Positions 1 through 29,529 of a stretch of DNA of 53,289 nt are shown here, one piece after another. The notes under the pieces were generated by a model. That model saw nothing but the letters and a program-made list of their open reading frames with translations, was not told the origin of the DNA and searched no databases. The number at the start of each line of letters is the position of its first letter. Position 1 is the stretch's first letter. The position numbers and the translations under genes are program-made. Origin of the DNA: Lachnoanaerobaculum saburreum DSM 3986. GTDB taxonomy: Bacteria; Bacillota; Clostridia; Lachnospirales; Lachnospiraceae. The stretch covers positions 2,688,612 through 2,741,900 of the forward strand of contig NZ_GL622296.1 in assembly GCF_000185385.1 (NCBI RefSeq). The letters are read 5' to 3'.

Positions 1-879
1 GGTATTAGCTACATTATCATATCTATAGCCTGTATATCCGAACGGCTGCACCTGTTCCTGTGTACCGTAAGTATCATTTCCAAACTCATCATAACCGTAT
101 ACCGTTTGGTTTTCGCTCTCCTGCTCAAAAAGACGAATAGGACTTCCAAGTTCATCACTTAGATATGTATAGACTTTTTCCTCTTCCTCCATGAATACAG
201 TATTAAAGTCCCATGCATAGCTTTGTACATGCTCCTTGTCTTTTCCTCTTTCTATCATATTTCTTTGCAGCATGTTGTTATAAGGTTTTGTCCTGTCAAG
301 TACATACCTTTCCTCGTATACCGGCTTACTTTCCGCTAGCTTAAGTTCAACGATACTTTTAAGTCCGGTTTCTCCAAAACCTTTACACTCACTACCGTAT
401 TCTCTAAAGCCTACTCTGTTTCCCATTCCGTCATAATCGTAGCTTCTTGCATTTCCTAAATTAGAGTAACTTAAACTAAGCCTACCTGATGCACCGTACT
501 CATAGGCTTTTATTCTCTTTCCTCTGCTCATTACCCCTATAAGGTTTCCTCTTTTATCATACTCATAGGTTTTATTTTCATATAATCCGCTTGTCTTTAC
601 CAGTCTGTCCAGGGCATCATAAGTATAGGCTACCTCCATGCCGTCTTTTTTCATCTTGCTTCTGTTTCCGAAAGCATCATAAGCATACCTGCAAACTTCC
701 TTTTCTCCTCTTTTTACGGCTATGAGGCGGTTTAGGCTGTCATACTCATAGTTAAAGACTGATGAATCTTCCCACAACTTATGTATGATTTTTTCTTTGT
801 TCTTATCTTCCTTTATTCCCTTAGAGTTTACATCCCTTTTTCTTACTGTCTTTGTTTTATTTCCGAGTAAATCATATCC
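1..879 (-). pseudogene. RHS protein, segment downstream of an in-frame stop (runs off the left edge)
   Basis: Reading past the TAA at 880-882 in the same frame gives 293 uninterrupted residues to position 1. It begins GYDLLGNKTK and keeps the YD-repeat pattern (YEYDSLNRL, YAYDAFGNR, YTYDALDRL). It then reaches the typical RHS core sequence YLSDELGSPIRL and QPFGYTGYRYDN, which in RHS proteins comes just before the self-cleavage site and the variable C-terminal toxin. The toxin itself would lie left of this window. The segment is the natural continuation of the 880-4368 gene, separated only by one stop codon. The stop could be a real nonsense mutation or a base error, since a TAT or TAC to TAA change would explain it. 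Confidence 0.85.
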
Positions 880-3800
880 TTAAAGGTATTCTTCAAGTTT
901 TTTGCTTCCTTTCATATGACAAAGCCTGCTTAAAAGCCCTCTTTCATCATACTCATAAAGACTGCCTATCTCATCAGGCATATCCTTTCTTATAAGTCTT
1001 CCTTCTTTGTCGTATGAATACCTTATCTCTTTATCTCCTGATATAAGACTTACAAGTCTTAGGTTTTCATCATAACCGTAATCAACACTTTTTCCGTCGG
1101 GATATACGGTTCTTAACCTTTCTCCTTCCTTTCCATACTCATATCTTACTTCTTTACCGTCATAATCAATTACCTTTGTTGTCCTTCCAAGCTTGTCATT
1201 TTCTATCCTTATAACTCCAAGTGCATCCTTCACATAACTTAATTTTCCTAAGCTGTCATACTCATACTCCGCTTTATATCCGTCTCCGTAAAGAATGCTT
1301 TTTATATCTCCCGCCTTGGTGTATGAATACCTTGTTTCATATCCGTCCCTGTCTTTTTTAAGTATTACTCTTCCTAAAAGATCGTATGAAAAGTACTCCT
1401 CTTCTCCAAAGGCATTTATAATACATTCAACATCTCCCATCAGGTTTCTTTTATATCTTGTTATCCTTGATACATTGGTGTCTTTAAGGCTTGCGGATAT
1501 TTCCTTACCGTATATTTCTTTTATTTTTGTTCCTTCTTTTAATGAATGTTTTCTTTCTTCATCTTCAATACATGAAAGTAATTCCCTGCTTTCTTCATGC
1601 CTGTATACCGTAGAAAGCCTCCCTGCCTTATCATATCCGTACTCGGTTCTGTTTCCCATGGAATCCAAGACGGAGATTAGTTTCCCTCCCTGAGAGTATA
1701 CATAACTTGTGCTGTTTCCTAATGCATCGGTTTCCTTTATTATGTTTCCCATGGCATCGTATTCAAAGCTTTGTTCCTGTAAAAAGCTGTTTTTTACTTT
1801 GGTAATACGGTTTAGTCTGTCATAGCTAAAAAGGATGTAATCGCCCTTTTCATTTTCTCTTTTTATAAGGTTGCCGACTTTATCATAGCTAAATACCTCA
1901 TATCTTTTATCCGGGTATATTTTTTTATGTAAAAGTCCGCCTTTTTGGTATATGTAAACGGTTTCTTTTTCTCCGGTCTTTATCTTTGACACTTTTCCAA
2001 GTTCATTATATTCATACTTTCTCGTATTCCTTAGCATATCGGTTTCAAGCACTACTCTTCCTAGAATATCATAATCATAAGTATATGTACCGATATCATT
2101 GCTTATTTTTAAGCTTCTTTTACCGTACTCATACTCCGTTGCCGCTCCCGACTTATCCTTGTAAGACAACAGTCTGTTTCTTTCATCATAGGAATACTCT
2201 TCGCTATCCCCTAAAGGATCGATAACCGATATAAGATTTCCGTTTGCATCATAACGGTATTCATACTCTCCCTTGTTTTGTAAAATCTTTTTCTCTACCA
2301 GATTTGCGGCATTATAAACATACCTTACCTCTCCCCCGTCCGGTCGGATTTCTTTTGTAAGGTTTTGGCAAAGGTCATACTCCAGTATGAAGTTTTCACC
2401 GTCAGGCAGGGTAAAGTCTTTTATTTTATTCATTTCGTTATAGTTAAGTTTTGTAATGCTTCCTCTAAAGTCCTCAAAAAGAGATAACTTGCCGTTTTCA
2501 GTATACTCATACCTGCAAGTGTTACCCATGGCATCCTTTACTCCTGTAAGCAGGTCCTTGTCATTATATGAAAACTCCGTTCTGTTTTTATTTCCGTCAA
2601 TGCTTGCCCTTACCCTGTTTAAGGCATCATACTCGTATGTTAAAACATTTCCGTTTTCTTCTATTTTGGATATGTTTCCTCTTTCATCATAAGAAACCTT
2701 GCTTTTTGAACCGTCCGGAAGGGTTACTATAACGCTTTCTTTATTTTCCTTATCTTCTTCATATTCACCTTCCTTATACTCTATGCTTGTAATCTCTTCT
2801 AAAGCGTTCTTTCTTTCAACAAGTCTTCCCTTATCGTCATAAGAGTATCTTTCAATCTCTTCTTTATTTTTATAATAAATGCTTAGATTTCCGTTTTCAT
2901 CATACTCAAAGCCTTCTACCTCTCCGCCAGGGTATATGCAGCTTTTTAAGTTTCCTTTTTTATCATACTCATATACCGTGGTGTTTCCCCTTTTATCCGT
3001 ATATGATGTTAAAAGGTTTCTTTCGTCATAGGTAAAGCTTTCGCTCTCTCCCGCATACTCGCTTTCAATGTTTCTGAAGTTTTCGTCATGTATGTGTACC
3101 TCTACATTTTCATTCTGGTTTGTTACAAAGGTTTTACTTTCTTCGCTGTCATACTCATATCTTATTATTCCTCCGTCGGCAAATCTTTGTATTCTCACCC
3201 TGTCAGCTCCATCATACATGTTTTCAAGTACATACACTCCCCTAGGATTTTTTATTTTTACCAAAAGTTCTTTGTCATAAAAATAATCATACATTCTTTG
3301 TCCGTTGGAATATACTCTTGTAAGCTGAGTGCTTTCATATCTGTACTCAATCTTTCTTCCGCTATGGTCTTTTACTTCTCTTAGTTTACCCTGTTCATCA
3401 TATGAAAAGGTAAGGCTGTTTCCTGCTTTATCGGACACGCTTAAAAGTCTTCCCTCGGTATCATAGGAAAGTAATACTTTAACCCCGTCTTTTCTTTCCA
3501 TAGAGAGAAGTCTTCCTTCTTTATTAAAAGTGTATAAAAGTCCTGTTTCGCTTTTATACTTAAACCCGTCCTTTGTTTTTTTAAGGCGGTTAAAATCATC
3601 AAAAACGGAAACTATGTTTTCTTCATCATCTAAAAGGTAGGCTTCATCCTGCCCGTCTGCAAGGTGTAGTATATATCCGTTTTTTTCCCTTTCTACGGAT
3701 ATTTCATAGCTGTGTCTCCAACCTTTTCCAAACACTCCTACTTTTTCTTCTTTACTGTTATAAAACCTTGTAAAGCTTAAAGGTATCTTTGAGAGTATCT

Positions 3801-4368
3801 TAAGATCTTCTTTTGAATAGATAAAGTTTCCGGTATTTGCATTTACCGGATCTCCCGTCATGGCACATAATGCACCCCTTGCACCCTTTAAAAAATCTTC
3901 CATACTGTTGTTTTTCATAAGATCTTTTAAAAGTTCATTCCATGAGGCAAAGGCCGGACCGTTTTTTTCAAGCATCTTTGAAATGATTTTATAGATTTCT
4001 TCCTTTAGCTGTACATCACTAAGTTCTAAAGCTGCCGGCACTGCATTATTTCTTACACGATTTAACGCACCTGTATAAACCGCACTGTAACTTCCATCCT
4101 GATTTTTGATTATCTTTACTCCTGCACAGGCTGCCAAACTTCCCATAAGTTTTAACATAAGCTTGTCTTTCTCACTTGGCACTCCTGCCATGACAGGCAT
4201 TGCACCAAGCATCATTGGAAGCAGTCTTTCAAAGTCCTTTGACATATCCTTATAAGGCTCTTTTAATTCTTCATATGTCCTTGATTTTTTCCCCTTAAGC
4301 AATACTTTATCGGCTGATATATTTACATCACTTTTTAACTTTATGGAACTTCCCTTTACTCTCTTCAT
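880..4368 (-). CDS. RHS/YD-repeat protein with DUF6531-like segment, ends at an in-frame TAA
   Basis: The protein has 1,162 residues from the ATG at 4368, chosen because GGAAGGAG sits just upstream; an upstream start would overlap the previous stop. The first 150 residues include a hydrophobic stretch (LLPMMLGAMPVMAG, LMGSLAACAGVKI). Around residue 170 is GDPVNANTGNF, the DUF6531 signature that opens RHS shells, followed by more than 30 YD repeats of the form YxYDxxGxL. RHS proteins form a hollow cocoon that carries a C-terminal toxin and often rides on VgrG/PAAR spikes of contractile injection systems. Here it is the last gene of such an operon, which fits a cargo or effector role. The reading frame stops at 880 but continues in the same frame to the window edge, so the encoded protein would lack its core end and toxin. 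Confidence 0.9.
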   Translation of the reverse strand: MKRVKGSSIKLKSDVNISADKVLLKGKKSRTYEELKEPYKDMSKDFERLLPMMLGAMPVMAGVPSEKDKLMLKLMGSLAACAGVKIIKNQDGSYSAVYTGALNRVRNNAVPAALELSDVQLKEEIYKIISKMLEKNGPAFASWNELLKDLMKNNSMEDFLKGARGALCAMTGDPVNANTGNFIYSKEDLKILSKIPLSFTRFYNSKEEKVGVFGKGWRHSYEISVEREKNGYILHLADGQDEAYLLDDEENIVSVFDDFNRLKKTKDGFKYKSETGLLYTFNKEGRLLSMERKDGVKVLLSYDTEGRLLSVSDKAGNSLTFSYDEQGKLREVKDHSGRKIEYRYESTQLTRVYSNGQRMYDYFYDKELLVKIKNPRGVYVLENMYDGADRVRIQRFADGGIIRYEYDSEESKTFVTNQNENVEVHIHDENFRNIESEYAGESESFTYDERNLLTSYTDKRGNTTVYEYDKKGNLKSCIYPGGEVEGFEYDENGNLSIYYKNKEEIERYSYDDKGRLVERKNALEEITSIEYKEGEYEEDKENKESVIVTLPDGSKSKVSYDERGNISKIEENGNVLTYEYDALNRVRASIDGNKNRTEFSYNDKDLLTGVKDAMGNTCRYEYTENGKLSLFEDFRGSITKLNYNEMNKIKDFTLPDGENFILEYDLCQNLTKEIRPDGGEVRYVYNAANLVEKKILQNKGEYEYRYDANGNLISVIDPLGDSEEYSYDERNRLLSYKDKSGAATEYEYGKRSLKISNDIGTYTYDYDILGRVVLETDMLRNTRKYEYNELGKVSKIKTGEKETVYIYQKGGLLHKKIYPDKRYEVFSYDKVGNLIKRENEKGDYILFSYDRLNRITKVKNSFLQEQSFEYDAMGNIIKETDALGNSTSYVYSQGGKLISVLDSMGNRTEYGYDKAGRLSTVYRHEESRELLSCIEDEERKHSLKEGTKIKEIYGKEISASLKDTNVSRITRYKRNLMGDVECIINAFGEEEYFSYDLLGRVILKKDRDGYETRYSYTKAGDIKSILYGDGYKAEYEYDSLGKLSYVKDALGVIRIENDKLGRTTKVIDYDGKEVRYEYGKEGERLRTVYPDGKSVDYGYDENLRLVSLISGDKEIRYSYDKEGRLIRKDMPDEIGSLYEYDERGLLSRLCHMKGSKKLEEYL

Positions 4369-4397
4369 TAGACACTCCTTCCTTTTTAATGTCTTAT

Positions 4398-4943
4398 TCA
4401 CTTTGTGTTTAAATTTACCTGTTTTAATTCTCCCATATACTCGCCAATAAGAATTATTGACTCTTTAGGTATATCTTCAAAAACATCAATATCAAACGCC
4501 CTTTCCAAGGCTTTTTTCCAAAGAATTGAAATGATATCTTCATATCCCTTTAAAACAAACCTTATCCCTTCTTCTATCTCCGGCTCACTTAATATAAGTC
4601 TTCCGATACCCTCCATCATTTCTTCACGAATTTTACAGGAATCTTTTTTCATAAAATCCGGAATCCAATACCTGATACCTAAAGGTTTATCTATATACAA
4701 GCCCTCATCTGAGGCATATAACATACATTTATAGCTTTTTGTATAAAGACTCGTATTAAGAAAAAATAATATAAGATACTTAAGCTTATATATCCGCTTT
4801 TCCTCTATCACATTTGACAGTATGTTTTTTATTTCTTCATATAAATCCTGTATATTATAATCTTTATACTCCCGAATTTTTTCGCCGATCCATCTGTATC
4901 TGAAACTTTTAAAATATTCCTTTTTTTGCTTTTCCCTATTCAT
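4398..4943 (-). CDS. Hypothetical protein, 181 aa, upstream of the RHS gene
   Basis: I do not recognise a family. The protein is charged and mostly helical, with no signal peptide and no clear membrane span; a hydrophobic patch (LKYLILFFLNTSL) lies near residue 60. It has a tryptophan-rich central motif (GIRYWIPDFMKKDSC). It starts 4 bases after the stop of the DcrB-like gene and ends about 30 bases before the RHS start, so the three genes are almost certainly co-transcribed. Position next to the RHS gene fits a chaperone/adaptor that loads RHS onto the spike, or an immunity protein. Both are inferences from context only. Confidence 0.7.
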   Translation of the reverse strand: MNREKQKKEYFKSFRYRWIGEKIREYKDYNIQDLYEEIKNILSNVIEEKRIYKLKYLILFFLNTSLYTKSYKCMLYASDEGLYIDKPLGIRYWIPDFMKKDSCKIREEMMEGIGRLILSEPEIEEGIRFVLKGYEDIISILWKKALERAFDIDVFEDIPKESIILIGEYMGELKQVNLNTK

Positions 4944-4947: not shown

Positions 4948-5526
4948 CTACTTTCTTACCGGTATTATATTTTGAAGTATGTCATTCACAGCTTTTTTCC
5001 ATGTCCATGATAATGGCTCCCTACAATTAAACATAACCTGTACTGTTTCTCTACCTATCTTACCCAGACCCGTTTTATGATATATTCTCTCATCTATTCC
5101 GGGTATAATAAAATCAAAGCAATACATTTTTACACAGCCTTCTTTCTCCAATTCATCATATGTTAAAAACTTTATCCCATTATGTGCTTTTGAAAGAAGA
5201 CTTTTAAAATCAGTTACCAAAGTTTTTACTTCCGTATCTTCACTGACTTTAAGAAGGCTAATGCTTAGATTTACATCTCCGGCAAGATTTGTTTTTATTA
5301 CCTCGGGTCTAAAATTAGTAGGATATTTTATTTCACTTATCTCCTTTGGCAAATCTATAAAAGATTCCGGAATATATATACTTAACAACTTATCAAAGTA
5401 CTGTTTTTTGCTAAAAGTTTCAAATCTGCCTTCTATATAGTATCCCGTATCCAAAGACATAGCTTCAGCTTCAGAGTTCCTTACTTTTAGAGGGATGATT
5501 TGCTTATCATAATAATTTTCTGCCAT
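4948..5526 (-). CDS. DcrB/DUF1795-like protein
   Basis: The protein has 192 residues. The stretch LSIYIPESFIDLP, then IKYPTNFRPEVIKTN and GDVNLSISLL, is the pattern I associate with the DcrB/PsbP-like (DUF1795) fold. Proteins of this fold in injection-system islands often act as adaptors or loading chaperones for RHS or VgrG effectors. There is no signal peptide, so it should be cytoplasmic. The ATG follows the stop of the LRR gene directly (TAA then ATG), and the next gene begins 4 bases later, indicating translational coupling. The family match was made by eye and could be wrong at the family-name level; the association with RHS is clear. Confidence 0.65.
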   Translation of the reverse strand: MAENYYDKQIIPLKVRNSEAEAMSLDTGYYIEGRFETFSKKQYFDKLLSIYIPESFIDLPKEISEIKYPTNFRPEVIKTNLAGDVNLSISLLKVSEDTEVKTLVTDFKSLLSKAHNGIKFLTYDELEKEGCVKMYCFDFIIPGIDERIYHKTGLGKIGRETVQVMFNCREPLSWTWKKAVNDILQNIIPVRK

Positions 5527-7632
5527 TTAATCTATATATCTCACTTTCTCATTGCTGATATACCAAAATTTATCTGCAACTTCCTTCGTCATAACAACTT
5601 CCTTTAATCTGTCACAGCCTACAAAGGACATTTCTCCTATTTCCTTTACGCTTTCAGGGATATAAATGTATTCTAATTTGTCGCAAAATTGAAATTCATA
5701 ATCTCCTACAGATATCAAATTTTGAGGTAATTCAACCCTTCTTAAATTCTTACAAAACGCAAAAGCGAAATCTCCAATGTATTTTAACTCTTTAGGAAAA
5801 ATCACTTTTTCAAAAGCAACCTCGGAAAAAACAGAATCAGCTATACTAACAGTACCTTCCTTTATAATAATCTCTTTTTTTCCTTTATCCACAAAACCTA
5901 CAATATGATTTTGTACATATTTACAGCCATATTGATCTTCTTCAATCTCTTTATAATATTTTGTGCCATAAAACGAACTCCCTATATACTCAGGATTATC
6001 TTCAAATTTTACAGCTTCTAAGTTTGTGCAATGCCCGAAAGCCCCCGATTCTATTCGTTTAACATACTTGGGAATTATTATTTTTTTTAGAGAACTGCAG
6101 CCTCCAAATGTGTTTTCTCCAATGTATTCCAACTCCTTTGGCAACTCTATTTCAGATAAATTTTCACAGTCCTCAAATGTACTCTCATATATTTCTCTGA
6201 CCGAATCCGGAATTAAAATTCCCTTCAAGCTTTTGCACTTATAAAATGCCGATTTCCCTATCCAATTCACATTTACAGGTATGTCTATATTTTCAAGATT
6301 AGTGCAATTATAAAAAGTATAACCTTCTATACGCTTTATAGTATTTGGTAAAATAATATTTTTTAATTTTTCAGAATCCCTAAATGCACTTCCGACTATA
6401 AAGTGTATATCTGAGCTAATGACAATAGTTTCCTTTATATCTGTTGACTTTAATAAAATATCTCTATAAATTTTTAAACCATCTTCATTTGCAGGTATAT
6501 TTTCAAGCCATTTGGTTCCTGTAAAACAATTGGAACCGAACTTTTCTACACTATTCGGTACGATTATATTTTCCAAATTTACACAATCATAAAAAGCAAG
6601 AGTCCCTATCTCTTTAATTCCTTCCGGTATCTCTATTTCTTTTAATGAGGAACAATTATATAAGATTTCTTCTTCTATAGTTTTAAGGCTATCAGGTAGC
6701 TTTATTTCTCCCAACTCTACGCACTCTCTAAAGGCAGCAGTTCTGATTTCTATCACCGAATCGGGTATAATTATATTCTTTAGTTTTGTATTTGAAAAAC
6801 TAAAGACACCTATACTTTTAAGTAAATCAGGAAATACTATACCTTCTAAACTTTTACAATTATAAAATGCATAATCTCCCACCTGCTCCAATAAATCCGG
6901 CAACTTTACAAACTTTAATTTATCACAATTTGAAAAGGTTTTATTTTCTATTATCTTCATTTCTGACGGCAAGTTGATACTCTCTAAACTTGTGCACTCG
7001 TAAAATGCACTTTCTTTTATCATTTCTACAGATGAAGGTATATTTACTTCTTTTAATTTAGTATTTGAAAAGCTAAACTTTCCTATCCTTTTAAGTGAAG
7101 GCGAAAATTTTATATTTTCTAAACTTGTGCATTCATAAAATGCTTTATCTCCTATTTGTTCCAATGTATCAGGTAACTCTACAATCTGTAATCTATCACA
7201 CCCCGAAAATGTTTCATTTTCTATTGATTTTATTGATGAGGATAAGTTGATATTCTCTAAGTTTGTACACTTATAAAATGTACCTTCTTTCACATATTCT
7301 ACCGAACGTGGAATATTAATTTCTTTTAAGTTACTACAATTCATAAATGAAAACTTGCCGATTTCTTCCACTCCATATGGTATCACTATTGTATTAATAA
7401 TTTTATTATTTGCAAAAGCATAGTCACCAATAGCTGTTACGCCTTCAGGTATTGTTATGTCAATCTCCCCTTTTATTCTGTCCATAATCCCAACTCTATA
7501 ATTAACTACAACACCTTCTTTTATTACAAAGTATCCTTTTAAATCTACTACTATAGACAGTATAATAGAGAATATTATAAATATTATAAATATTATAAAA
7601 GCACTTTTATCCTTTAGATTTTTTGTCAACAT
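5527..7632 (-). CDS. BspA-type leucine-rich repeat protein with N-terminal membrane anchor
   Basis: The protein has 701 residues from the ATG at 7632 (a GGGGG tract upstream; a GTG at 7644 is the alternative). Residues 10-30 form one hydrophobic helix (FIIFIIFIIFSIILSIVV). The rest is about 24 tandem 22-24-residue LRR_5 repeats of the form LKEINIPxSVEYIGxxAFxxCTNLE, broken by two longer insertions (SSFYGTKYYKEI and ENIPANEDGLKIYRDILL). BspA-type LRRs are common in surface proteins of gut and oral Firmicutes and bind host or bacterial ligands. With one N-terminal helix and a positively charged start, the repeats should face outside. Finding it inside an injection-system operon suggests a target-binding or surface-tethering role, which is inference. 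Confidence 0.88.
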   Translation of the reverse strand: MLTKNLKDKSAFIIFIIFIIFSIILSIVVDLKGYFVIKEGVVVNYRVGIMDRIKGEIDITIPEGVTAIGDYAFANNKIINTIVIPYGVEEIGKFSFMNCSNLKEINIPRSVEYVKEGTFYKCTNLENINLSSSIKSIENETFSGCDRLQIVELPDTLEQIGDKAFYECTSLENIKFSPSLKRIGKFSFSNTKLKEVNIPSSVEMIKESAFYECTSLESINLPSEMKIIENKTFSNCDKLKFVKLPDLLEQVGDYAFYNCKSLEGIVFPDLLKSIGVFSFSNTKLKNIIIPDSVIEIRTAAFRECVELGEIKLPDSLKTIEEEILYNCSSLKEIEIPEGIKEIGTLAFYDCVNLENIIVPNSVEKFGSNCFTGTKWLENIPANEDGLKIYRDILLKSTDIKETIVISSDIHFIVGSAFRDSEKLKNIILPNTIKRIEGYTFYNCTNLENIDIPVNVNWIGKSAFYKCKSLKGILIPDSVREIYESTFEDCENLSEIELPKELEYIGENTFGGCSSLKKIIIPKYVKRIESGAFGHCTNLEAVKFEDNPEYIGSSFYGTKYYKEIEEDQYGCKYVQNHIVGFVDKGKKEIIIKEGTVSIADSVFSEVAFEKVIFPKELKYIGDFAFAFCKNLRRVELPQNLISVGDYEFQFCDKLEYIYIPESVKEIGEMSFVGCDRLKEVVMTKEVADKFWYISNEKVRYID

Positions 7633-7663
7633 TAAATCCCCCACAAAATCATTTTTTAGATTA

Positions 7664-8122
7664 TTAATTTGTTTTCTCTATAATTTTATTCTTTATAAAT
7701 TCTTCAGTTAGCTCTAATTCGACTTTATTACTATCACCCTGATCATAGTATATACCTATAAACTTCCCCCAATGATATTTCTCGCCTTCTACTCTATCAA
7801 TCATATTATATTCAGAAACTTCAGTGCTAACTTCTGCATCCATATCGTATTCCTTAACCAGTCCTTCCTTATTTCCGTACATTACAATTTTTACCATATT
7901 CACGTCTTTTTTATCATCAGTATCACTATCAGTCTTAAAATAAGGTCTAAGTTGAGCAGCTAATTCTTCTATCTCTGATATACCTACCAACCCAACTAAT
8001 GTATCAACTGCAGTAGCAAAAACACCGGTAGCTGTATCCACTATTCCTATTATTACCTCAACAACAGTCTTTCCTGTTGATGTAGCTGTGTCTCTACCTT
8101 TATTTTTTGTTGCATGATCCAA
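7664..8122 (-). pseudogene. Frameshifted C-terminal fragment of the upstream DUF4280 spike-tip protein
   Basis: This 152-residue frame can only start at TTG (8122). The same frame stays open further upstream, to a run of seven T at 8211-8217 near the end of the 8191-9126 gene. Adding one base there would fuse the two into about 487 residues. The 502-residue paralogue at 19080-20588 has the same layout. The fragment shares its late landmarks: a hydrophobic central block, then VKIVMYGNKEGL against IITLYDVRNKDD, and GEKYHWGKF against GEKYLAGNF. The upstream open stretch (YIKLFFDYLAGV) also matches the paralogue (YNMLIRDFIGV). I therefore read it as the detached C-terminal domain, not an independent gene. 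Translation from TTG behind AGGGG is still possible. Confidence 0.7.
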
Positions 8123-10452: not shown

Positions 10453-11805
10453 TCAACTTATATGAATACCTTCACCACTCACAGTTATTCCGTCTTTTAA
10501 TATTATTTGTGTATCATCTTGTAAAAGCATAATCCTTTTACCTGCCACCATGGATATATTTGAATCCTCACTGCTTATCTCAACAGTGTCCTTTGCTTTT
10601 ATCAAAATACTTCCTGTACTTACTATCTTGACTCCTGTACTGTCATTTAGTTCAATATAATCTCCCGTATCGCTTTTTATGGTTATACCTTCCGGTGTCA
10701 GTCTTATTTCTTTTCCGTATTTATTTCTCCAAATTTTATTTTCAGGATCGGTTCTTATTCCATCTCCCTCATTTTCATGTACTGCACTGCAAACATAGGC
10801 ATTTTCTTCATTTTCTGTAGGAAAATACAGTCTTACGCTGTCTCCTACTTCCGGCATACAATACCACCCTGCTCCGTCACTTGAAGAATATACAGTGGAA
10901 AAATCAAACCATCTTTCTATTTCTTCATCCTTATTTTCTATATCCTCTATTGCTATCTTAACCTTTTCTTTTTCTACATTTGTAACTTTAGCGTAAAGTG
11001 ATGCTCCTATTACTTTCAAATCATACTTGCTTTCTTTTTTTACTATATAATCTATATCCTGTGTTAAATAATATGTATGGTAAAGTTCACTTCCCTCTGT
11101 TTTAGATACAATTTTTATTATACGGTAGTCTCTTCTGTTAAAGCTTACTCTGTCTCCTAAACTATGGATTTCCCTTGATTTGACTTCATAAACTGTATAC
11201 TCTTTATTTACAACAATACGCACATCCTGTGAAGTTAAAACTCCGGTATCTCTTTTTGGCATACCGAAAAAATACTTCACCCCTTCACTCTGATAATCCG
11301 GCATTACCACTGTCTGCTTTAAAGCTGCAATCCTTTTTATAAAGTTCCAGTCATTTTCTTCATACTGTACCAAAAATCCGGGCAATACCCCCTTTCCGTC
11401 TTCTCCTGTTATATAGTATGACTCTTCATATCCTTCTTTTAATGCATTAAGTATATCAGCATATTCTCCGGCACATTTAGAAAATCCTCTTGTATGTACT
11501 TTTTCTTCCATTAAAGAACTTCCTGTGATTAATTCCAATTCAACAAGGAAACTTCCGCTTTCCTTAAAGAAACATATTCTTTCTAATAATCCATAAAATA
11601 TCGTACTCTCTTTATCTGTTTCATCAAGGGCATTAACCCTTACCCATCTTGTATTTTGGGCAGTATTAATATACTCTTCTTCTCTTTTTTCTTCTATTAT
11701 GGCTCTTATTATTGCCCTACCATGCTTGCCCACCTCATGTTTTGCTTCATAACTTGTTACCGCAAGTACATCAAAAATATCAAGTTTTATAAGGTTTTCT
11801 CTCAT
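10453..11805 (-). CDS. VgrG-like spike protein (phage late control gene D family), copy 1
   Basis: The product has 450 residues. The gpD hallmark (LVQYEENDWNFIKRIAAL) is followed by an OB-fold region with the classic gp5-like surface (WYCMPEVGDSVRLYFPTENE, then AYVCSAVHENEG). A C-terminal beta-helix-like needle comes last (KIWRNKYGKEIRLTPEGITI, TGSILIKAKDTVEISSEDSN). The order base, OB-fold, needle is that of VgrG and phage gp27-gp5. Its start codon overlaps the previous stop (ATGA), so it is translationally coupled to the 158-residue gene. It should trimerise as the central spike on top of the tube proteins encoded at 25866-26739. The family assignment is firm from the motif order; sequence-level subfamily is not determined. 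Confidence 0.88.
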   Translation of the reverse strand: MRENLIKLDIFDVLAVTSYEAKHEVGKHGRAIIRAIIEEKREEEYINTAQNTRWVRVNALDETDKESTIFYGLLERICFFKESGSFLVELELITGSSLMEEKVHTRGFSKCAGEYADILNALKEGYEESYYITGEDGKGVLPGFLVQYEENDWNFIKRIAALKQTVVMPDYQSEGVKYFFGMPKRDTGVLTSQDVRIVVNKEYTVYEVKSREIHSLGDRVSFNRRDYRIIKIVSKTEGSELYHTYYLTQDIDYIVKKESKYDLKVIGASLYAKVTNVEKEKVKIAIEDIENKDEEIERWFDFSTVYSSSDGAGWYCMPEVGDSVRLYFPTENEENAYVCSAVHENEGDGIRTDPENKIWRNKYGKEIRLTPEGITIKSDTGDYIELNDSTGVKIVSTGSILIKAKDTVEISSEDSNISMVAGKRIMLLQDDTQIILKDGITVSGEGIHIS

Positions 11806-18978: not shown

Positions 18979-19079
18979 ATTAATTAATATAATATATGTA
19001 ATACCAAATATTAAAAAAATAATAATATGACTAATATATCTTTTTAATTTTCTTCATTTCGCACAGCTCCTACAATACA

Positions 19080-20588: not shown

Positions 20589-20615
20589 AGGCATTACCCC
20601 TCTTATCTGTCACCA

Positions 20616-21905
20616 TTATAGACTATAACTGTTTTCCAAAACTCCTATACAGATATATTCATCAAAGCTTATCTGTAACTGTGATATGGCATATCTTACC
20701 ATTGCTTCACAAAGGTTGCTGTCACTGTTTCTTAAAAACCTTAAAATAAGTTTAGGGCTTTCATCTGTTAGTTGGAAATTCTCATTTGTAAAGTTATTCA
20801 TATCCGGCAGGATTTTCATTTCTTCTAAAAATGCTTTGTTTGTTGCCAATCTTTCACAGGATTTAAGCGATACATACTCTCCAATATCAAGCTCTTCAAT
20901 AATCCTTTCTATTTCCGCTTCGGTATGGATTTTTTCTTTGGCTTTATTTAGAAGGCGACCAATCATTCCTTCTTTTCTTTTATTGCTTATTAAGCCGATT
21001 GGCAATTCTTCTTTTGTATATCTTATATCAAAGATATTATACCCTTCCAAATCGGAATAACTTTCTTCATATGACTTTACTATAATCTTTTCTTCTTCCT
21101 GTCTTATTCCTACCATACCTCCAGTTTTTTGTATCAGTCGTAAGATAATCTCCTTATCTTTTTGCCTAATCATTTCACGTTCATAGTATAATCCGTCTTT
21201 ACTTGGACTTAAAAATGTACTGCTCTTAAATACATTTTTTTCTATGTTCCATACAGGATAAAGTTCTTCTTCTATCATATCGGCATATTTTCCATAGTCC
21301 ACTTCAACATCTCTTGCATTTTGGGGAAGTCCTGACAGGTCTATATCAAAAAAGCGGTCAAGGTATGCGGTATTTACCGTATTCCATCTAAGCCCGTTAT
21401 AAGAAAAGGTTTCATAAAGTTTCCCCACTTCTTTCCTGTATCGAAGAGCCTTTTTAGGTTGTACCAAAAGTGTGTGTTTTTCTTTGTTATTTGTAAAACT
21501 TACTCTTATATTTTCTTGTAAAAAAGCCTTGCATGCACTGTCGGCTGCATTAAGATAAACGGTTTTTATAGAATTTTTGCCTTCCATGCAACCTTCTTTA
21601 ATATCGGCTTCCTTATCCTCTATTACATCCAAATCTGATATCGGAAAAAACATCCTTAAAAATGTATTCTCATTTTTTGGAAGTAAAAGTATCGCAATCT
21701 CATAGCTCTCCTCTTTGCTCTCAAGCTCATCATATACCTTTTTATACAGTGATTTATATCTTTCTTCAAAAACCTCACTCATCCTGTAAAGACCGTCATA
21801 TAAAACACTTTTTGCAAGGACATACTCATCTTCTTCTTTTATTTCTGAAAGTCTGTCCTTTACATATTTCTTTATGTCAAACTCATCCAAGCATACCTTA
21901 TCCAT
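20616..21905 (-). CDS. Hypothetical protein, 429 aa, baseplate candidate
   Basis: I do not recognise the family. It is a soluble, acidic protein with no signal or membrane helix. Recognisable stretches are AILLLPKNENTFLRMFFPI, LRWNTVNTAYLDRFFDIDL, and the C-terminal ILRFLRNSDSNLCEAMVRYA. Size and isolation between the PP2C-like membrane proteins and the DUF4280 tip gene would suit a baseplate wedge component such as a TssF or gpJ equivalent. I see no sequence motif that proves that. A good AGAGGTG ribosome site precedes the ATG. Structure prediction would be more informative than sequence search. Confidence 0.72.
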   Translation of the reverse strand: MDKVCLDEFDIKKYVKDRLSEIKEEDEYVLAKSVLYDGLYRMSEVFEERYKSLYKKVYDELESKEESYEIAILLLPKNENTFLRMFFPISDLDVIEDKEADIKEGCMEGKNSIKTVYLNAADSACKAFLQENIRVSFTNNKEKHTLLVQPKKALRYRKEVGKLYETFSYNGLRWNTVNTAYLDRFFDIDLSGLPQNARDVEVDYGKYADMIEEELYPVWNIEKNVFKSSTFLSPSKDGLYYEREMIRQKDKEIILRLIQKTGGMVGIRQEEEKIIVKSYEESYSDLEGYNIFDIRYTKEELPIGLISNKRKEGMIGRLLNKAKEKIHTEAEIERIIEELDIGEYVSLKSCERLATNKAFLEEMKILPDMNNFTNENFQLTDESPKLILRFLRNSDSNLCEAMVRYAISQLQISFDEYICIGVLENSYSL

Positions 21906-24722: not shown

Positions 24723-25214
24723 TTACCATGAAAACTGCTTTCCACATAAAGCAATATATAAAAACTCACTCTCACCCATGGTAATTACATCATAGGTTTC
24801 AAGTATCTGCGGAGTATAAACGGCTTTGCCATTTAAGTAAGTAATGCCTCCACCTTCTGTACAGATAAGTGTCGCTTCAAGATCTTTTTCATCAAAAGAT
24901 AAAATAGCATGATTTTCCTGCTTTATGGCATTATCTCCAATAATTTGGATATCCATGGCATCCGTTCTCCCGATATAGTTTTTTCCAAATACTATACGAT
25001 AGTCTTTTCCGTATCTTGGTCCCTTAATACAAACAAGCCATGCACATACCGGTTTAGTTTTTATCCTTATTAAGCTTTCTTCAAGCTCATTATCATCAAA
25101 CGATTCTTCAAGTTCTTTTCTTTCAGTCATGTCCATATTGCAGTACGGACAAATATTTCCGTATCTTCTTTTTGAAAACATATGTCCGTTTTTACATCGT
25201 ATTAAATTCCCCAT
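24723..25214 (-). CDS. Zinc-ribbon protein with one FHA domain
   Basis: The 163-residue product has a zinc-ribbon-like start (RCKNGHMFSKRRYG, CPYCNMDM), an acidic linker, and one FHA domain (AWLVCIKGPRYGKDYRI, FGKNYIGRTDAMDIQI, QENHAILSFDEKDLEATL, then ITYLNGKAV). The order and the conserved start CxxGHxFSKxRYGxICPxC are shared with the double-FHA protein at 12324-13289. FHA domains read phosphothreonine; the zinc ribbon may tether a partner. It starts only 5 bases after the membrane FHA gene and lies between it and the PP2C-like genes, so these form one signalling-like block within the operon. Confidence 0.87.
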   Translation of the reverse strand: MGNLIRCKNGHMFSKRRYGNICPYCNMDMTERKELEESFDDNELEESLIRIKTKPVCAWLVCIKGPRYGKDYRIVFGKNYIGRTDAMDIQIIGDNAIKQENHAILSFDEKDLEATLICTEGGGITYLNGKAVYTPQILETYDVITMGESEFLYIALCGKQFSW

Positions 25215-25219
25215 TTTTC

Positions 25220-25747
25220 TTACCTTATCTGTAGTTTATTAAGTCCTATAAAAATATAGTCTTTTTTTGTCAGTTTACTCTGTCCGTCTTTAATATTATA
25301 AAGCTTATTCTCTAAACAACCCTTAATCTGTGTTCCGTTCTTACTTTGCATATCTTCTATATACCAAAATCCGTCCACATAGTTAAGTATCGCATGAATA
25401 TCACTTACGGTTCCTGAAAAATAAGTATCTGATAAATCTATATCTATATCCTCTTCTTTATTCTTCTTTCCTATTACCAAAGAGTTCTTTCCCAAAATAT
25501 TCCATGTTTTTACAACAGTATCCTCTTCGCTTAAAAGAACAAGCTCCGACAAAAATTTATCTTGTATCTTTTCTTTTCTAAAAGAAAAATCCTTTAAAGA
25601 AAAACAGATTAAAGAACCTGAAATTAAAAAAGAAAACATATAAAATATATATTCGCCCTTTGATCCTCTTCCAAAAAATATAGTGATTATAACACACAAA
25701 ACCGCTGCAAATATTCCTGAAATATCAAGAAAAAATCTTTTATTCAT
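25220..25747 (-). CDS. Membrane-anchored FHA domain protein
   Basis: The 175-residue protein has two N-terminal hydrophobic helices (FAAVLCVIITIFFG and YIFYMFSFLISGSLICFSL), then a short linker. An FHA domain fills residues 80-175: SLVIGKKNKEEDIDIDLSDT, VSDIHAILNYVDGFWYIED, SKNGTQIKG, YIFIGLNKLQI. It keeps the HAxL and S-NGT signatures, while the usual Arg or Ser pair before His is replaced by SD. The FHA domain would be cytoplasmic, at the membrane, which could mark the docking site of the injection machine. It is the first gene after the terminator that follows the tube genes. Confidence 0.84.
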   Translation of the reverse strand: MNKRFFLDISGIFAAVLCVIITIFFGRGSKGEYIFYMFSFLISGSLICFSLKDFSFRKEKIQDKFLSELVLLSEEDTVVKTWNILGKNSLVIGKKNKEEDIDIDLSDTYFSGTVSDIHAILNYVDGFWYIEDMQSKNGTQIKGCLENKLYNIKDGQSKLTKKDYIFIGLNKLQIR

Positions 25748-25865: not shown

Positions 25866-26294
25866 TTATTCGGCTGCGTACCCACCTTCAACTATCAGAC
25901 CTGCCATCTTATCTTTTTTCTGTTTTATTACAAGAGTAAAGTTTCCTACTCCCTCTTCATCTCCATGCCTTTCTTTATAATTTACTACAAAAGCATTCGG
26001 AAATACATATTTTCTTTTTGTAATACCTGCTACAATCTGTTCTACCGTAACCTTTCTATAGCAGTCTTTATTCTGTGCCGGAACCATAGACCAAAGTGCC
26101 ATATTTCTTGTAGAATCAAAAGGATCACCGTCTACTGCCGTTAAAATCTTGCCGGTAATTTCCATTGTCGCACCGGCATCATTGGTACGTGCATTTGAAT
26201 CAATAGGAATGTCTGTAGATAAAAATACGCTGTTTACACATTCTTTTGCAAGTTCAAAACTTTCATTACCTTCTATTTTCACTTTGTATGCCAT
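25866..26294 (-). CDS. Tube-like protein (Hcp/phage tail tube type), copy 2
   Basis: The 142-residue product starts at the ATG at 26294, eight bases after GGAGG; TTG at 26300 is less likely. It is all-beta looking and is paralogous to the next gene upstream: both have a conserved WSMVPAQNKDCYR or WSQIPSENADCYR motif, KYVFPNAFVVNYKE or KYVIPNAFVVEYSE, a FTLVIKQKKDK or FYIHIRQKKDN strand, and end EGGYAAE or EGGYAGE. Small beta proteins encoded right after a sheath gene are normally the inner tube. Sequence alone does not prove the Hcp fold; the inference rests on size, pairing, position and the sheath neighbour. Confidence 0.72.
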   Translation of the reverse strand: MAYKVKIEGNESFELAKECVNSVFLSTDIPIDSNARTNDAGATMEITGKILTAVDGDPFDSTRNMALWSMVPAQNKDCYRKVTVEQIVAGITKRKYVFPNAFVVNYKERHGDEEGVGNFTLVIKQKKDKMAGLIVEGGYAAE

Positions 26295-26313
26295 GTTCAA
26301 TCCCTCCTACTCA

Positions 26314-26739
26314 TTATTCTCCGGCGTATCCGCCTTCTACTGCTACCTTTGCATTATTATCCTTCTTTTGACGTATATGGATATAAAACTCTCCGGTACC
26401 GGTCACATCATCCGCCTTTTCAGAATACTCAACCACGAATGCATTTGGAATTACATACTTTCTTACAACAGATCCGGCAGATACTACTGTTACCTCCGCA
26501 ACTCTGTAACAATCTGCATTCTCAGACGGAATCTGAGACCACTTCGCAAGTTTTAATACATCATCACTGTCCGCTCCGACATTGTATAAAACTCTACCCC
26601 ACACTTTTACGCCCAACCCGAAGTCTGTTGCTTTAGCGTTGGAATCCTTTGGAGACTCGGACAAAAACTCTGCATTTACTATACTTCTTTCATCAAAGTC
26701 CGCCACTTCTGAACCTGTTACCCTGAATCTAATTCCCAT
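26314..26739 (-). CDS. Tube-like protein (Hcp/phage tail tube type), copy 1
   Basis: The product has 141 residues and is preceded by ATAGGAGG with ideal spacing, suggesting high expression. The layout is the same as copy 2: an opening beta stretch (GIRFRVTGSEVADFDERS), a conserved central WSQIPSENADCYRVAEV, then VRKYVIPNAFVVEYSE, GEFYIHIRQKKDN and EGGYAGE. There is no signal peptide. The gene follows the sheath-like gene by 123 bases and precedes its paralogue by 13. Two distinct tube proteins could form a mixed tube or serve tube and tube-initiator roles, as in some phage-like systems. Confidence 0.73.
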   Translation of the reverse strand: MGIRFRVTGSEVADFDERSIVNAEFLSESPKDSNAKATDFGLGVKVWGRVLYNVGADSDDVLKLAKWSQIPSENADCYRVAEVTVVSAGSVVRKYVIPNAFVVEYSEKADDVTGTGEFYIHIRQKKDNNAKVAVEGGYAGE

Positions 26740-26862: not shown

Positions 26863-29037
26863 TTATTCTCCTGCAACACGATTTAGAGGCACTTCTATTC
26901 TCTTTATAGCATTTCCGAAACTTATCTCTATAGCACATACGCCTGCTGTATCATCAACTTCATAAGTAATATCGTCATTGCTTCCAAGTATACCGTTAAT
27001 ATTTGTTTTTTTGGAAAGCCATATACTTTTCTGACTTGACGGATTATTTGAGAAGAACTTAGCTATATTCTCCGCCTTAAAATCTCCTGTAGCATGCCTT
27101 AAAATTCTTTCAATATAGTTTGCTGTCTGAGTTTTATAAATAGGCTCATAACTTCCACCTGAAAGTTTTAAGTTTCTTGCTTTGTACACCATTATATGAC
27201 TGATATTTTCTCCGTCTAAAACCGCATTTTCCGAAGAAAATACAAATCCAAACCCTCTTTTATTGATATCGTCTTTTACACTGTTCGTAAACCCGGTAAT
27301 CTCTTTTGACATAGTGGTATGTATTTTAAGAGAATTATTCTTTGCCTCAATATCAAATCTTACACCCGGTAAATCAGTATCAACATCCTTCTTAAAATAC
27401 TCTTTAAGATACTCCGGAGACTGGTAACTTGCCACAAATCCGGCTGCCACATATGCCGCACCTATATAAACTCCGTCTATCCAAAGCTTCATAATATCTT
27501 CTTTTGCCTTAGAAAGTTCGGCAGCTTCATTTTCATTAACAATCATCCTGCTTTCAAGCTTTACTCCTGACTTATCTTTCGGAATAATTGTAAAATTAGG
27601 TACACAAGAAATCAGATATTCTGAATAAGGCTTACCGCTAAGACTTGCACATCTGTCATCAAAAAATCCTACTCCGGTCATTGCCATGCTGTTGAAAGTT
27701 GTCTTATCTCCCGTCTCATAGGAATAAAAGCACTGTACACCATAATCCTTCATGGCATCTGCAACTCTTGCCAAAGATTCTACGCTTACATTTTCAGTCT
27801 TTACACTGTCTTTGTTTCCCTTGAATCTTTCCCTTGTAACATTCATCTTTGATTTTTCATCCAAAGACACTCCTGCAACAATTGCATACCAAACAGTATT
27901 ACCATAGTCATTTTTTTCATTTACAGTATTCAGATATGCACAAAGCTTAGGCACATTCAAACTGTTTGCCATAACTTCATTCTTCACATTGGCTATAAGA
28001 AGGCTTGGTCTCATACCTTTTACCTGTTTTGGATACTGTTCAAAAAAGGCCCATACACCTAATATTTTTTCAACCAAAGGTTTTACAACTTTTATAAAAT
28101 CATCCTTTGCGTTTTTGTAAAATTCAAGATATGTATTGTAATTGTCCACTTCCTTTTTTACATCAATCTGACTTTGCATTGATGAATTTAGCGGACAAAA
28201 AGTTCTTACCACCAACTGTTTTACATAACTGTTTCCTTCAGAATTCAGAGCATCATAATCGTCTTCAAGAGCTTCAATAAGTCCTGCATTTGAATTGTCA
28301 TCTGTAAGCACTAAAGTGCTTTCTTCCACCTTCGGAGCCTCTATTACTGTAAGTTCTCCCTCAGAAGACATGGTTAGAAGTCCCAGAGTCAGAGCATCAT
28401 TGCTTTCAGACTCTTTTGATTCTCCAAGTAAAAGTCTTGTCTTTATATCTGAGATTGCAAGCGGAATCATCGCCATAAGATTTTGATAATTGGAACTGGC
28501 TTCTTCAAACATGGAATTAAGCTTATCACCAAGATCAAGCTTATGAGGATCTCCGTCTTCAAGTTTTGCGTACTCTGCATAAGTATACTGAAGTTCCTTC
28601 CTTACCTGCTTAATGTCATCCATAACCTTTGAAGGAGAAATCATTTCTGTAAGTTTTTCAAATTTAAAATCTGCATTGATAATTCCCTGACTTCTTTTTG
28701 TTTCAACCAAGGTCATAAGCATTTTCAAAAAATCATTATGTGCATTAAGATGAACTATACTTAACATATTTTCAGGAACACCTGCCGGTTTTTCCTTAGA
28801 ATACACAATCTTTCCTGTTGTAGCATTAAAAAAAGAATATACTGTCGGATCAAATTTTTCTAAAAACTCTTCAAAGTTTCTAACAAGGAGTGCTTCATTG
28901 ATTTCCTTTACCTTATCATCACTTAAGCTGTCAAGTCCTCTTACATCACCAACTAAGGTAAGTAAGTTAAGCTTCTCCGGATTAATCTCCTCAATCAACA
29001 AAGTACGGTTTGTTTGCTTTATAATACTTTCTGCCAT
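26863..29037 (-). CDS. Contractile sheath-like protein (fused TssB/TssC type)
   Basis: The 724-residue protein is the first gene of the operon. Residues 1-190 look like a TssB-type part: a beta start (LTLVGDVRGLDSLS), the FEEFLEKFDPTVYSFF stretch, then FEKLTEMISPSKVMDDIKQV, which resembles the TssB segment that leads into the sheath handshake. After an acidic linker (200-265), the long second part resembles TssC: a helical block (KNAKDDFIKVVKPLVEKILG, RPSLLIANVKNEVMANSLNV), a beta core, then a final KRIEVPLNRVAGE. Length equals TssB plus TssC. I recognise no exact family name. Two tube-like genes and VgrG/PAAR-like genes downstream support the sheath call; structural prediction is needed to settle it. 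Confidence 0.65.
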   Translation of the reverse strand: MAESIIKQTNRTLLIEEINPEKLNLLTLVGDVRGLDSLSDDKVKEINEALLVRNFEEFLEKFDPTVYSFFNATTGKIVYSKEKPAGVPENMLSIVHLNAHNDFLKMLMTLVETKRSQGIINADFKFEKLTEMISPSKVMDDIKQVRKELQYTYAEYAKLEDGDPHKLDLGDKLNSMFEEASSNYQNLMAMIPLAISDIKTRLLLGESKESESNDALTLGLLTMSSEGELTVIEAPKVEESTLVLTDDNSNAGLIEALEDDYDALNSEGNSYVKQLVVRTFCPLNSSMQSQIDVKKEVDNYNTYLEFYKNAKDDFIKVVKPLVEKILGVWAFFEQYPKQVKGMRPSLLIANVKNEVMANSLNVPKLCAYLNTVNEKNDYGNTVWYAIVAGVSLDEKSKMNVTRERFKGNKDSVKTENVSVESLARVADAMKDYGVQCFYSYETGDKTTFNSMAMTGVGFFDDRCASLSGKPYSEYLISCVPNFTIIPKDKSGVKLESRMIVNENEAAELSKAKEDIMKLWIDGVYIGAAYVAAGFVASYQSPEYLKEYFKKDVDTDLPGVRFDIEAKNNSLKIHTTMSKEITGFTNSVKDDINKRGFGFVFSSENAVLDGENISHIMVYKARNLKLSGGSYEPIYKTQTANYIERILRHATGDFKAENIAKFFSNNPSSQKSIWLSKKTNINGILGSNDDITYEVDDTAGVCAIEISFGNAIKRIEVPLNRVAGE

Positions 29038-29347: not shown

Positions 29348-29376
29348 ATAGTACCACATATACAGAATATTTTCAA
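29348..29376 (-). promoter_or_regulatory. Sigma-A-type promoter of the injection-system operon
   Basis: On the minus strand TTGAAA (29371-29376) is followed after exactly 17 bases by TACTAT (29348-29353). The surroundings are AT-rich, with an A/T tract upstream of the -35. Transcription would start about 300 bases before the sheath ATG. No other equally good promoter was seen between here and the sheath gene. Confidence 0.6.
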
Positions 29377-29529
29377 GTTTTTTTAATATAATTTACATCT
29401 ATATTACAATACATAAAATGGCATTAAAGCTATGGTTAGTTGTACTGATTTTCAGCCATAAACTCTACTGAAATAACAATTATGTTCATAAAGTAAGTAT
29501 ACTAAAAAATCAATATAACTCATTTTTAG

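Follow-up and report, generated by a model that had tools for sequence, protein, structure and literature searches.

The stretch of DNA studied here, 53,289 nucleotides of the genome of Lachnoanaerobaculum saburreum DSM 3986 (Lachnospiraceae; 3.08 Mb, 97.3% complete; contig NZ_GL622296.1, positions 2,688,612 to 2,741,900, or G000:C1:2688612-2741900) and hereafter called the window, carries 23 collinear genes on the minus strand between positions 880 and 29037 (Table 1). The genes named by the original prediction, coding for a sheath, tubes, VgrG proteins, DUF4280 proteins, an RHS protein, an ATPase, PP2C and FHA proteins and leucine-rich repeat (LRR) proteins, are all present there, and Pfam confirms the three FHA-type, two LRR_5, two DUF4280 and RHS assignments. 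The locus is almost certainly a contractile injection system (CIS), with a sheath recognised from a structural model, a tube recognised more modestly from sequence, and a VgrG spike with a PAAR-like tip.

The 724-residue putative sheath protein is barely visible to family searches: its best Pfam match (0.0092) is under the cut-off, NCBIfam gives nothing and PHROGs only weak matches (0.026 or worse). An AlphaFold2 model built from 18 aligned sequences (mean pLDDT 77.8, pTM 0.80, low-confidence parts mainly at residues 206-245 and 395-413) was compared to PDB with Foldseek, and contractile sheaths were the top three of 736 matches: the Azotobacter type VI secretion system (T6SS) sheath-tube complex (9n4v_A, E 2.5e-4, prob 1.00) and the sheath of phage P1 (8jaj, E 0.019; 9ay3, E 0.051). 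The E-value falls below 0.001 for the first alone, with TM-scores of 0.21-0.30 over the query. When residues 1-140 were compared to 12 T6SS families by hhalign, TssB came first; its score of 24.7 is attained by none of 25 column shuffles (maximum 17.5), at a probability of only 9.6%. The Foldseek top matches and the TssB ranking of the amino terminus make the assignment secure by fold and T6SS-leaning; on the model, the 724-residue protein is a very divergent contractile sheath, as had been predicted. The sheath of L. orale DSM 24553 (L031) is 99% identical to that of the window, its gene being split into two open reading frames (ORFs). Searches with tblastn gave no sheath match in 50,697 phage records (E 1e-3) or 72,556 plasmid records (E 1e-5).

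The proteins of 141 and 144 residues are homologous (family A2). Pfam TssD/Hcp matches are found in 12 of 34 A2 members (best 0.0018), the 141-residue protein itself not being among them, and the A2 profile has a single match in PDB, to Hcp1 (E 0.17). By hhalign the tube profile ranks TssD of T6SS subtype iii (T6SSiii) first, above 25/25 shuffles, with a probability of 3.2%. These comparisons give modest support to Hcp/TssD-like tubes; the likeness predicted for the 141-residue protein stands at the level of sequence only. Loci of Selenomonas (L085:18563-19285, L086:18842-19585, L089:18565-19314) have an extra tube-like protein of ~240-250 residues, a possible tube-cargo fusion.

The spike is recognised by profile. 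The profile of the 450-residue family (A6) finds in PDB the T6SS spike VgrG 8gra as best match (1.6e-20), followed by Anabaena All3320 (1e-17) and Pvc8 (3.8e-10), and also matches Afp8; hhalign aligns the 450-residue protein to T6SS VgrG with 98.4% probability and among the locus proteins Pfam reports a Phage_base_V (VgrG-like) match at 6e-6. The 420-residue protein, aligned to A6 with 99.8% probability (E 1.9e-29), is on this sequence relation a second VgrG; its PDB matches to designed Cake/Bagel proteins, spanning ~45 residues, were disregarded. Over 281 residues the two DUF4280 proteins are 55% identical, and the remainder is not shared. The larger has ~220 extra residues, including a hydrophobic stretch, and is probably a tip fused to cargo.

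These genes form a conserved unit, as the original prediction required. The sheath is found in 25 of 392 genomes of the order, and the family of the 230-residue protein (A4, also referred to by its 262-residue ORF) in exactly the same 25. The Hsp70-like family is in 30 of the 392, that is in 24 of the 25 sheath genomes and in six others (G104, G114, G140, G212, G247, G293), where G114, G212 and G293 are weak matches and G247 is a fragment. Fisher tests of co-occurrence with the sheath give 5e-40 for the 262-residue family and 1e-31 for the Hsp70-like family, values that ignore shared ancestry. Sheath matches also occur in 14 of 398 genomes spanning the phylum, one of them weak (G447, E 5.9e-4), and a scan of 84,980 species genomes yielded 425 related stretches. 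The best 80 of these 425 matches, hereafter the named loci, are for that reason biased to close relatives; they include Roseburia, Oribacterium, Lacrimispora, Clostridium, Paenibacillus, Selenomonas and Pelosinus. Negativicutes have a diderm envelope, and since relatives at ~58-64% identity are found there, the restriction to monoderm hosts in the original prediction was too narrow.

Across loci the genes recur in the order sheath, tube, tube, membrane FHA protein, soluble FHA protein, a protein with a transmembrane (TM) helix before a PP2C-related domain (TM-PP2C), a PP2C-TM protein, and then, in varying arrangement, the genes for the 429-residue, 262-residue, Hsp70-like and 258-residue proteins. 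Many of the 80 named loci are truncated, and in some the tubes are followed by inserted genes; counts were made in the 57 that have at least 9 kb after the sheath (long loci), where the farther genes (counted 34 times for 429, 24 for 262 and 32 for Hsp70-like) are clipped by the 10-kb flank. The order holds in the Paenibacillus-like genomes G722 and G457 and in the named locus of Paenibacillus ehimensis (L104), which, like the locus of the cultured Pelosinus fermentans JBW45 (L072), retains the complete gene set. Four divergent loci, with sheaths ~27-34% identical (G292, G375) or found by profile (G635, G767), keep the sheath and the 262-residue family, while tube, VgrG, 429, Hsp70-like and 258 genes are variable. 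In G292 tube and VgrG are not recognised in the stretch, and of the FHA, PP2C and J-domain set there is only a weak match of the 274-residue type. Two sheath copies are seen in G258 (C1, C15), G219 (C8, C56) and G377 (C1, C21); the C1 locus of G258 has duplicated 429/262/258 and VgrG genes, and in L083 the block 429-262-Hsp70-258 lies before the sheath.

Three proteins encoded next to the sheath and tubes have TM helices, as predicted by simple hydropathy. The 175-residue FHA protein has two in 33 of 38 homologues and one in the remaining 5; the 274-residue protein has one in 55 of 58 and two in the other 3; the 616-residue protein has one in 51/51. Their genes (TM-FHA, TM-PP2C and PP2C-TM) adjoin sheath and tubes in 53, 52 and 50 of the 57 long loci, respectively. 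The amino-terminal domain of the 616-residue protein matches, by profile, the PP2C phosphatase Stp1 (2pk0, 1.6e-12) and PppA (6jkv, 1.4e-7), which bears out the PP2C relation proposed earlier, and an iterated profile search joins the 274-residue protein to this domain, the TM count from that merged set being left out. The aspartates of the SDG, ADG and DNxT motifs presumably bind metal. That of SDG is replaced (by K, R, Q, E or S) in 23/23 rows, while those of ADG and DNxT are kept in 17/23 and 9/23, both being present in the window protein; the domain is related to PP2C in fold and lacks the full metal-binding set. Because the SDG aspartate is lost throughout, the phosphatase is predicted to be inactive. 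A positive charge preceding the TM helix suggests that the repeat-rich carboxyl-terminal half of the 616-residue protein is outside. FHA parts of the 175- and 163-residue families align to T6SS TagH (92.5% and 74.3%, hhalign). A candidate dock made of the three membrane proteins, one FHA and two PP2C-related, is plausible, and the machine is probably membrane-anchored. Classical T6SS loci, too, are accompanied by FHA, kinase and PP2C genes, so these proteins may act in regulation rather than as a scaffold. Of the docking candidates suggested earlier, the membrane FHA and PP2C-like proteins prove to be conserved. The LRR proteins are outside the core set: LRR matches turn up in 3 of the 80 named loci, whose sequence ends no more than 10 kb beyond the sheath, and in one of the 10 loci that were extended. 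The 321-residue double-FHA protein has a full-length relative only in G342, of the same genus, most of the loci examined being too short to show the gene.

The 864-residue protein matches HscA (1.2e-6) and DnaK (0.0017), the listed matches spanning the ATPase part alone (residues 223-485). DxGxxxT, DCGGGTxD and GQSC, which we take to be the phosphate 1, phosphate 2 and adenosine motifs, are invariant across 19 aligned family members. With these superfamily motifs, the protein reads as an Hsp70/actin-type ATPase that Pfam recognises weakly. A dedicated J-domain protein, mostly of ~110-165 residues, accompanies it in most relatives: a profile finds the gene in 57 of 69 testable named loci (most of L039-L110, for instance L072:14393-14842 and L104:12804-13244), 11 being too short to score, and a pattern in 53. 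In 53/53 of the latter it follows a tube gene with no other recognised gene between, and in 44/53 it precedes the membrane FHA gene. All four J proteins tested match Pfam DnaJ (best 4.3e-28), and the 16/16 aligned have in common the HPD motif and a carboxyl-terminal block around NP-D-F. Of the 61 loci long enough to be scored for it (19 were too short), 43 have a vWA gene in the 3.5 kb upstream of the sheath, usually in the orientation of the sheath gene (examples L117:4468-6486 and L123:2021-3766). Pfam VWA matches 2/2 tested, and 5 of 6 sequences start with an apparent signal sequence; the gene was not found in the window genus. That the Hsp70-like ATPase serves the sheath or assembly at all is about as likely as not, and to the narrower proposal that it recycles the sheath we give somewhat less than even credence. 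ClpB of Francisella is, in the part of PMC7182274 available, a precedent for another chaperone in T6SS disassembly.

Three further core proteins, of 429, 230 and 258 residues, are candidate baseplate components. Pfam searches of their families A3 (24 members), A4 (17) and A7 (13) gave nothing consistent, their PDB profile searches nothing convincing, and no known homologue of the 262/230-residue family was found; among 12 T6SS families, likewise, nothing was convincing. By-eye assignments of the 230-, 258- and 429-residue proteins as TssG, TssK and TssF were abandoned when profile comparison gave nothing (T6SS alignments of 6 rows for TssK, 11 for TssG, 12 for TssF and 12 for TssE). The 258-residue family adjoins the Hsp70-like gene in the divergent loci G375 and G635 and is in the same locus in G292. 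The start of the 262-residue ORF is most likely at 17438, which gives 230 residues.

Table 1. Genes of the contractile injection locus, with positions in the window and the basis of each assignment.
Gene product	Position	Strand	Basis
Contractile sheath, single chain, 724 residues, N-terminal ~140 residues TssB-like	26863..29037	-	AlphaFold2 model, Foldseek, hhalign
Tube protein 1, 141 residues, Hcp/TssD-like	26314..26739	-	Family A2 Pfam TssD, hhalign
Tube protein 2, 144 residues, Hcp/TssD-like	25866..26300	-	Pfam TssD 0.016 for tube 2 itself; homologous to tube 1 (A2)
Membrane FHA protein, 175 residues, two predicted TM helices, C-terminal FHA	25220..25747	-	Pfam FHA 7.7e-9
Soluble FHA protein, 163 residues, Cys pattern read as zinc ribbon	24723..25214	-	Pfam FHA 9e-5; in 52/57 long loci
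TM + PP2C-related protein, 274 residues	23837..24661	-	Iterated profile search; no Pfam match of its own
PP2C-like (probably inactive), TM and repeat-rich, apparently extracytoplasmic region, 616 residues	21972..23822	-	Profile match to Stp1 PP2C
Core protein, 429 residues, candidate baseplate/wedge	20616..21905	-	Conserved family A3
DUF4280 PAAR-like tip with C-terminal extension, 504 residues, probable cargo fusion	19080..20594	-	Pfam DUF4280 1.4e-12
LRR protein, 495 residues, not core, no TM predicted	17491..18978	-	Pfam LRR_5
Core protein, 230 residues (ORF extends to 17534), candidate baseplate	16746..17438	-	Family A4 co-occurrence with sheath
Hsp70/actin-type ATPase, 864 residues	14124..16718	-	HscA 1.2e-6, motifs, co-occurrence
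Core protein, 258 residues, candidate baseplate	13335..14111	-	Family A7, 13 aligned members
Protein with two FHA-like domains, 321 residues, Cys pattern resembling the 163-residue protein	12324..13289	-	Pfam Yop-YscD_cpl 2.3e-9
Imm11-like small protein, 158 residues, recurrent beside VgrG	11802..12278	-	Pfam Imm11 0.0025, below cut-off; 30 homologues
VgrG spike 1, 450 residues	10453..11805	-	Profile A6 against PDB; hhalign to T6SS VgrG
VgrG spike 2, 420 residues	9174..10436	-	hhalign to A6
DUF4280 PAAR-like tip, 311 residues	8191..9126	-	Pfam DUF4280 3.4e-16
152-residue protein, cargo region	7664..8122	-	Pfam: no family above cut-off
LRR protein, 705 residues, N-terminal TM at 15-33, not core	5527..7644	-	Pfam LRR_5
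192-residue protein, family recurrent near VgrG, candidate cargo adaptor	4948..5526	-	Family A8, 16 aligned members
181-residue protein, recurrent small family	4398..4943	-	13 homologues in related loci
RHS cargo with in-frame stop, RHS-like repeats on to window edge	880..4401	-	Pfam RHS_repeat 1.9e-85

Several small proteins are encoded around the spikes and tips. The 158-residue family, which adjoins the sheath in the divergent loci G635 and G767, gave no match as TssE/gp25. The 152-residue protein did not match the carboxyl terminus of the 504-residue tip, and a DUF1795/PsbP-like adaptor role for the 192-residue family was rejected, one PsbP match at 0.072 in 16 members being insufficient. 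The RHS gene is broken by an in-frame stop at 880-882, RHS-like repeats continuing in the same frame to the window edge; its counterpart in G342 is an open frame of 1715 residues. In the flank past the RHS gene (L135) a small-gene pair (160/161 and 161 residues) occurs in two copies (14184-15123 and 18464-19400) with transposase-like ORFs between them, an arrangement that looks like an orphan cargo/immunity cassette array in a flank whose end is masked. Together with the interrupted RHS gene, it fits competition between bacteria. A plasmid of Paenibacillus polymyxa (L130, 11824-16819) carries a VgrG-DUF4280-VgrG block with pentapeptide-repeat and nuclease-annotated neighbours; no sheath gene is annotated in the 25 kb examined there, and the plasmid collection held no match to the sheath query.

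At the other end of the locus, ~800 bases from the sheath gene, starts a conjugative element (29847-53279) with genes for a NikA-like mobilization protein, a relaxase, an SSB-like protein, an SNF2-type helicase, a topoisomerase, TrbL, TraG, a reverse transcriptase with a weak group II intron maturase match and a 2509-residue methylase-helicase protein. Other genes occupy this position in G342.

The explanation that we consider best, and likely, is that the locus codes for a cell-anchored CIS of a family widespread in Bacillota, with its own Hsp70(-J) chaperone. Sheath and tube would assemble in the cytoplasm on a platform formed by the membrane FHA protein and the two PP2C-like membrane proteins, and would dock on the 616-, 274- and 175-residue proteins on the inside of the membrane, with the 429-, 230- and 258-residue proteins as baseplate. 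On contraction the tube would be driven through the envelope of the producing cell into a neighbour, together with the VgrG-DUF4280 spike and with cargo of the tip-fused or RHS kind. The Hsp70-like ATPase, with the J protein in most relatives, would take the chaperone part that falls to ClpV or other ATPases in other systems: it may dismantle the contracted sheath, keep tube, spike and cargo assembly-competent, or serve cargo loading.

A number of results weigh against this picture. The carboxyl-terminal half of the sheath has no profile match to TssC, 18 of 25 shuffles scoring equal or higher, and the tubes do not rise above shuffles when compared to T6SSi Hcp by hhalign (4/25 as high). The 429-, 230- and 258-residue proteins have no sequence match to TssE/F/G/K, either as single T6SSiii sequences or by profile comparison, which leaves a baseplate of T6SS type unproven. 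Profiles of the FHA (175 and 163), 274 and 616 families matched none of TssL, M, J, N and O, of which TssN and TssO were represented by one sequence each; such identities were accordingly rejected, and docking rests on TM prediction and gene linkage. The Hsp70 model of Pfam matches the 864-residue protein at 0.071 only and none of four relatives, and the profile of its family (A5) finds no PDB chain at E 1. Twelve of the 69 testable loci lack the J gene: seven of Lachnoanaerobaculum type (L031-L037), Oribacterium L038, and L071, L075, L080 and L094. The window genus being among them, a housekeeping DnaJ may serve in Lachnoanaerobaculum; the single match of the J profile in the window genome is a 373-residue frame far from the locus that resembles that protein. 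Finally, neither FHA nor PP2C nor J genes were seen in ~30 kb of the divergent loci G635 and G767.

The closest known machines are T6SSs, especially subtype iii of Bacteroidota, which resemble the present locus in Hcp/TssD-like tubes, VgrG, a PAAR-like DUF4280 tip, the nearest sheath fold, FHA and PP2C accessory proteins, RHS cargo and the lack of a recognised tape measure. The locus differs by a one-chain sheath, by membrane proteins of its own, by the Hsp70-like ATPase with its J partner in most relatives, and by the absence of recognisable TssJ/L/M, TssE/F/G/K and ClpV. TssK was not found genome-wide at E 0.001, nor TssG and IcmF (TssM) at E 10. No protein of the locus has a Pfam match to TssJLM or TssNOPQR, TssL, N, O, P, Q and R having been left out of the genome-wide search. 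Nine locus families (sheath, tube, 429, 262, Hsp70-like, VgrG, 258, 192 and 158) gave no match to TssJ or to TssE/F/G/K, and neither did the four FHA/PP2C families to TssE/F/G/K. The ClpV model has no genome match above its cut-off; the frames that it matches more weakly, of 875 and 835 residues and >880 kb away, we read as ClpB and ClpC. The lack of TssJLM- and ClpV-like genes noted in the original prediction is upheld by Pfam and profiles. Since the membrane, baseplate, two-chain sheath and motor features of T6SSs were not found, membership in that class is unsupported. A true but extremely divergent T6SS of an existing subtype, with TssEFGK and ClpV replaced in sequence only, would account for the TssB and TssD rankings, for the T6SS spike as best PDB match of the VgrG profile and for the FHA and PP2C genes, which T6SS loci have too. 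We regard it as unlikely in view of these missing components, of the single-chain sheath, of baseplate candidates that do not align to TssE/F/G/K and of membrane proteins unlike TssL/M/J/N/O. The system most likely works like a T6SS.

Phage-type features were also searched for. Pfam recognises no tape-measure, gp25, holin, lysin, tail-fibre or AAA+ ATPase gene in the locus; a CDC48-type AAA+ ATPase is a criterion of extracellular CIS (eCIS) in the accessible part of PMC3482391. The genome has just one gp25-like match (26.8 bits, slightly under the cut-off), in a separate locus (L134, G000:C1:371000-390999) that looks like an ordinary contractile phage tail, its genes read from size and amino-terminal sequence as a 486-residue sheath, a 1033-residue tape measure and a holin-like gene. 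The earlier view, which set the locus apart from both classical T6SSs and ordinary phage tails, is supported. The eCIS Afp and PVC and the thylakoid-anchored CIS of cyanobacteria share sheath, tube and VgrG-type spike with it, as in the All3320, Pvc8 and Afp8 matches. Afp/PVC-type clusters, those of Firmicutes included, have gp25, baseplate J and LysM proteins according to the passages available from PMC4122934; in the present locus these, a tape measure and an AAA+ ATPase are not recognised, and membrane proteins recur. An extracellular CIS, or a particle of tailocin type, that is built in the cytoplasm and set free when the cell lyses would be in line with the spike matches and with diffocin and Streptomyces CIS, Gram-positive systems that are phage-tail-like. 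It is nevertheless improbable: no lysis gene, tail fibre or other of the components just listed is recognised in the locus, three recurrent membrane proteins are found instead, the sheath model and amino terminus are nearest to T6SS, and tblastn at E 1e-3 gave no sheath match in 50,697 phage records.

Streptomyces offers another comparison, since its cytoplasmic CIS, also Gram-positive, requires the membrane protein CisA for contraction and function, as stated in PMC12237407; by that description, the present locus stands apart in that its membrane proteins are several and carry FHA and PP2C domains. A CIS of the cytoplasm that is aimed at the membrane of its own cell and brings about regulated death, the membrane proteins being CisA-like triggers, would suit chaperones and phospho-signalling modules, which could respond to stress. 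We hold this to be quite improbable, because the position of the J gene between tube and FHA genes (44/53 loci) points to assembly and because RHS, DUF4280-extended and small recurrent cargo genes appear to be of the kind used against neighbours. That the locus is a decaying, non-working remnant in the present strain, as the stop in the RHS gene, the split sheath gene of L. orale and the nearby conjugative element could indicate, is very improbable given 425 related stretches in other genomes and core genes that are open, close in length to their G342 counterparts and 66-97% identical to them.

Two further comparisons come from the literature. The passages available from PMC8651086 speculate on an unknown phage-like translocation system of Firmicutes from PAAR_H2/Phage_GPD neighbourhoods, in which DUF4280 genes and VgrG/GPD neighbours occur without conserved T6SS or eCIS genes. 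These passages name no sheath, tube, chaperone or membrane genes, for which the present locus supplies candidates; the two are likened by description. Conflict neighbourhoods with HSP70/DnaJ, vWA and PP2C genes share recurrent Hsp70, DnaJ, vWA, FHA and PP2C modules with our loci and differ, in the portion of PMC7159879 available, in being GTPase- or MoxR-centred and without a contractile machine. No description of the family was found in the open-access literature (preprints being outside the scope), and the available parts of PMC12210884, PMC10266427, PMC3482391 and PMC11883445 contain nothing on it. The CIS family is real, conserved and apparently undescribed. A bolder proposal, to which we give somewhat less than even credence, is that it is a new class of cell-anchored CIS of monoderm and diderm Bacillota, identical to the translocation system suggested from orphan Firmicutes DUF4280-VgrG genes, in which a dedicated Hsp70-J pair replaces ClpV in sheath recycling and PP2C-derived, probably inactive, membrane proteins and FHA proteins replace TssJLM as the envelope-spanning dock.

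The locus supplies candidate sheath, tube, membrane and chaperone genes that are directly testable in cultured species. If it is true that Hsp70(-J) recycles or builds the sheath, this would be a new way of powering such machines, and the presence of the same membrane proteins in monoderm and diderm hosts bears on how docking may be achieved without TssJLM. As the family is spread among gut, rumen and oral bacteria, it may be a means of competition that has been overlooked.

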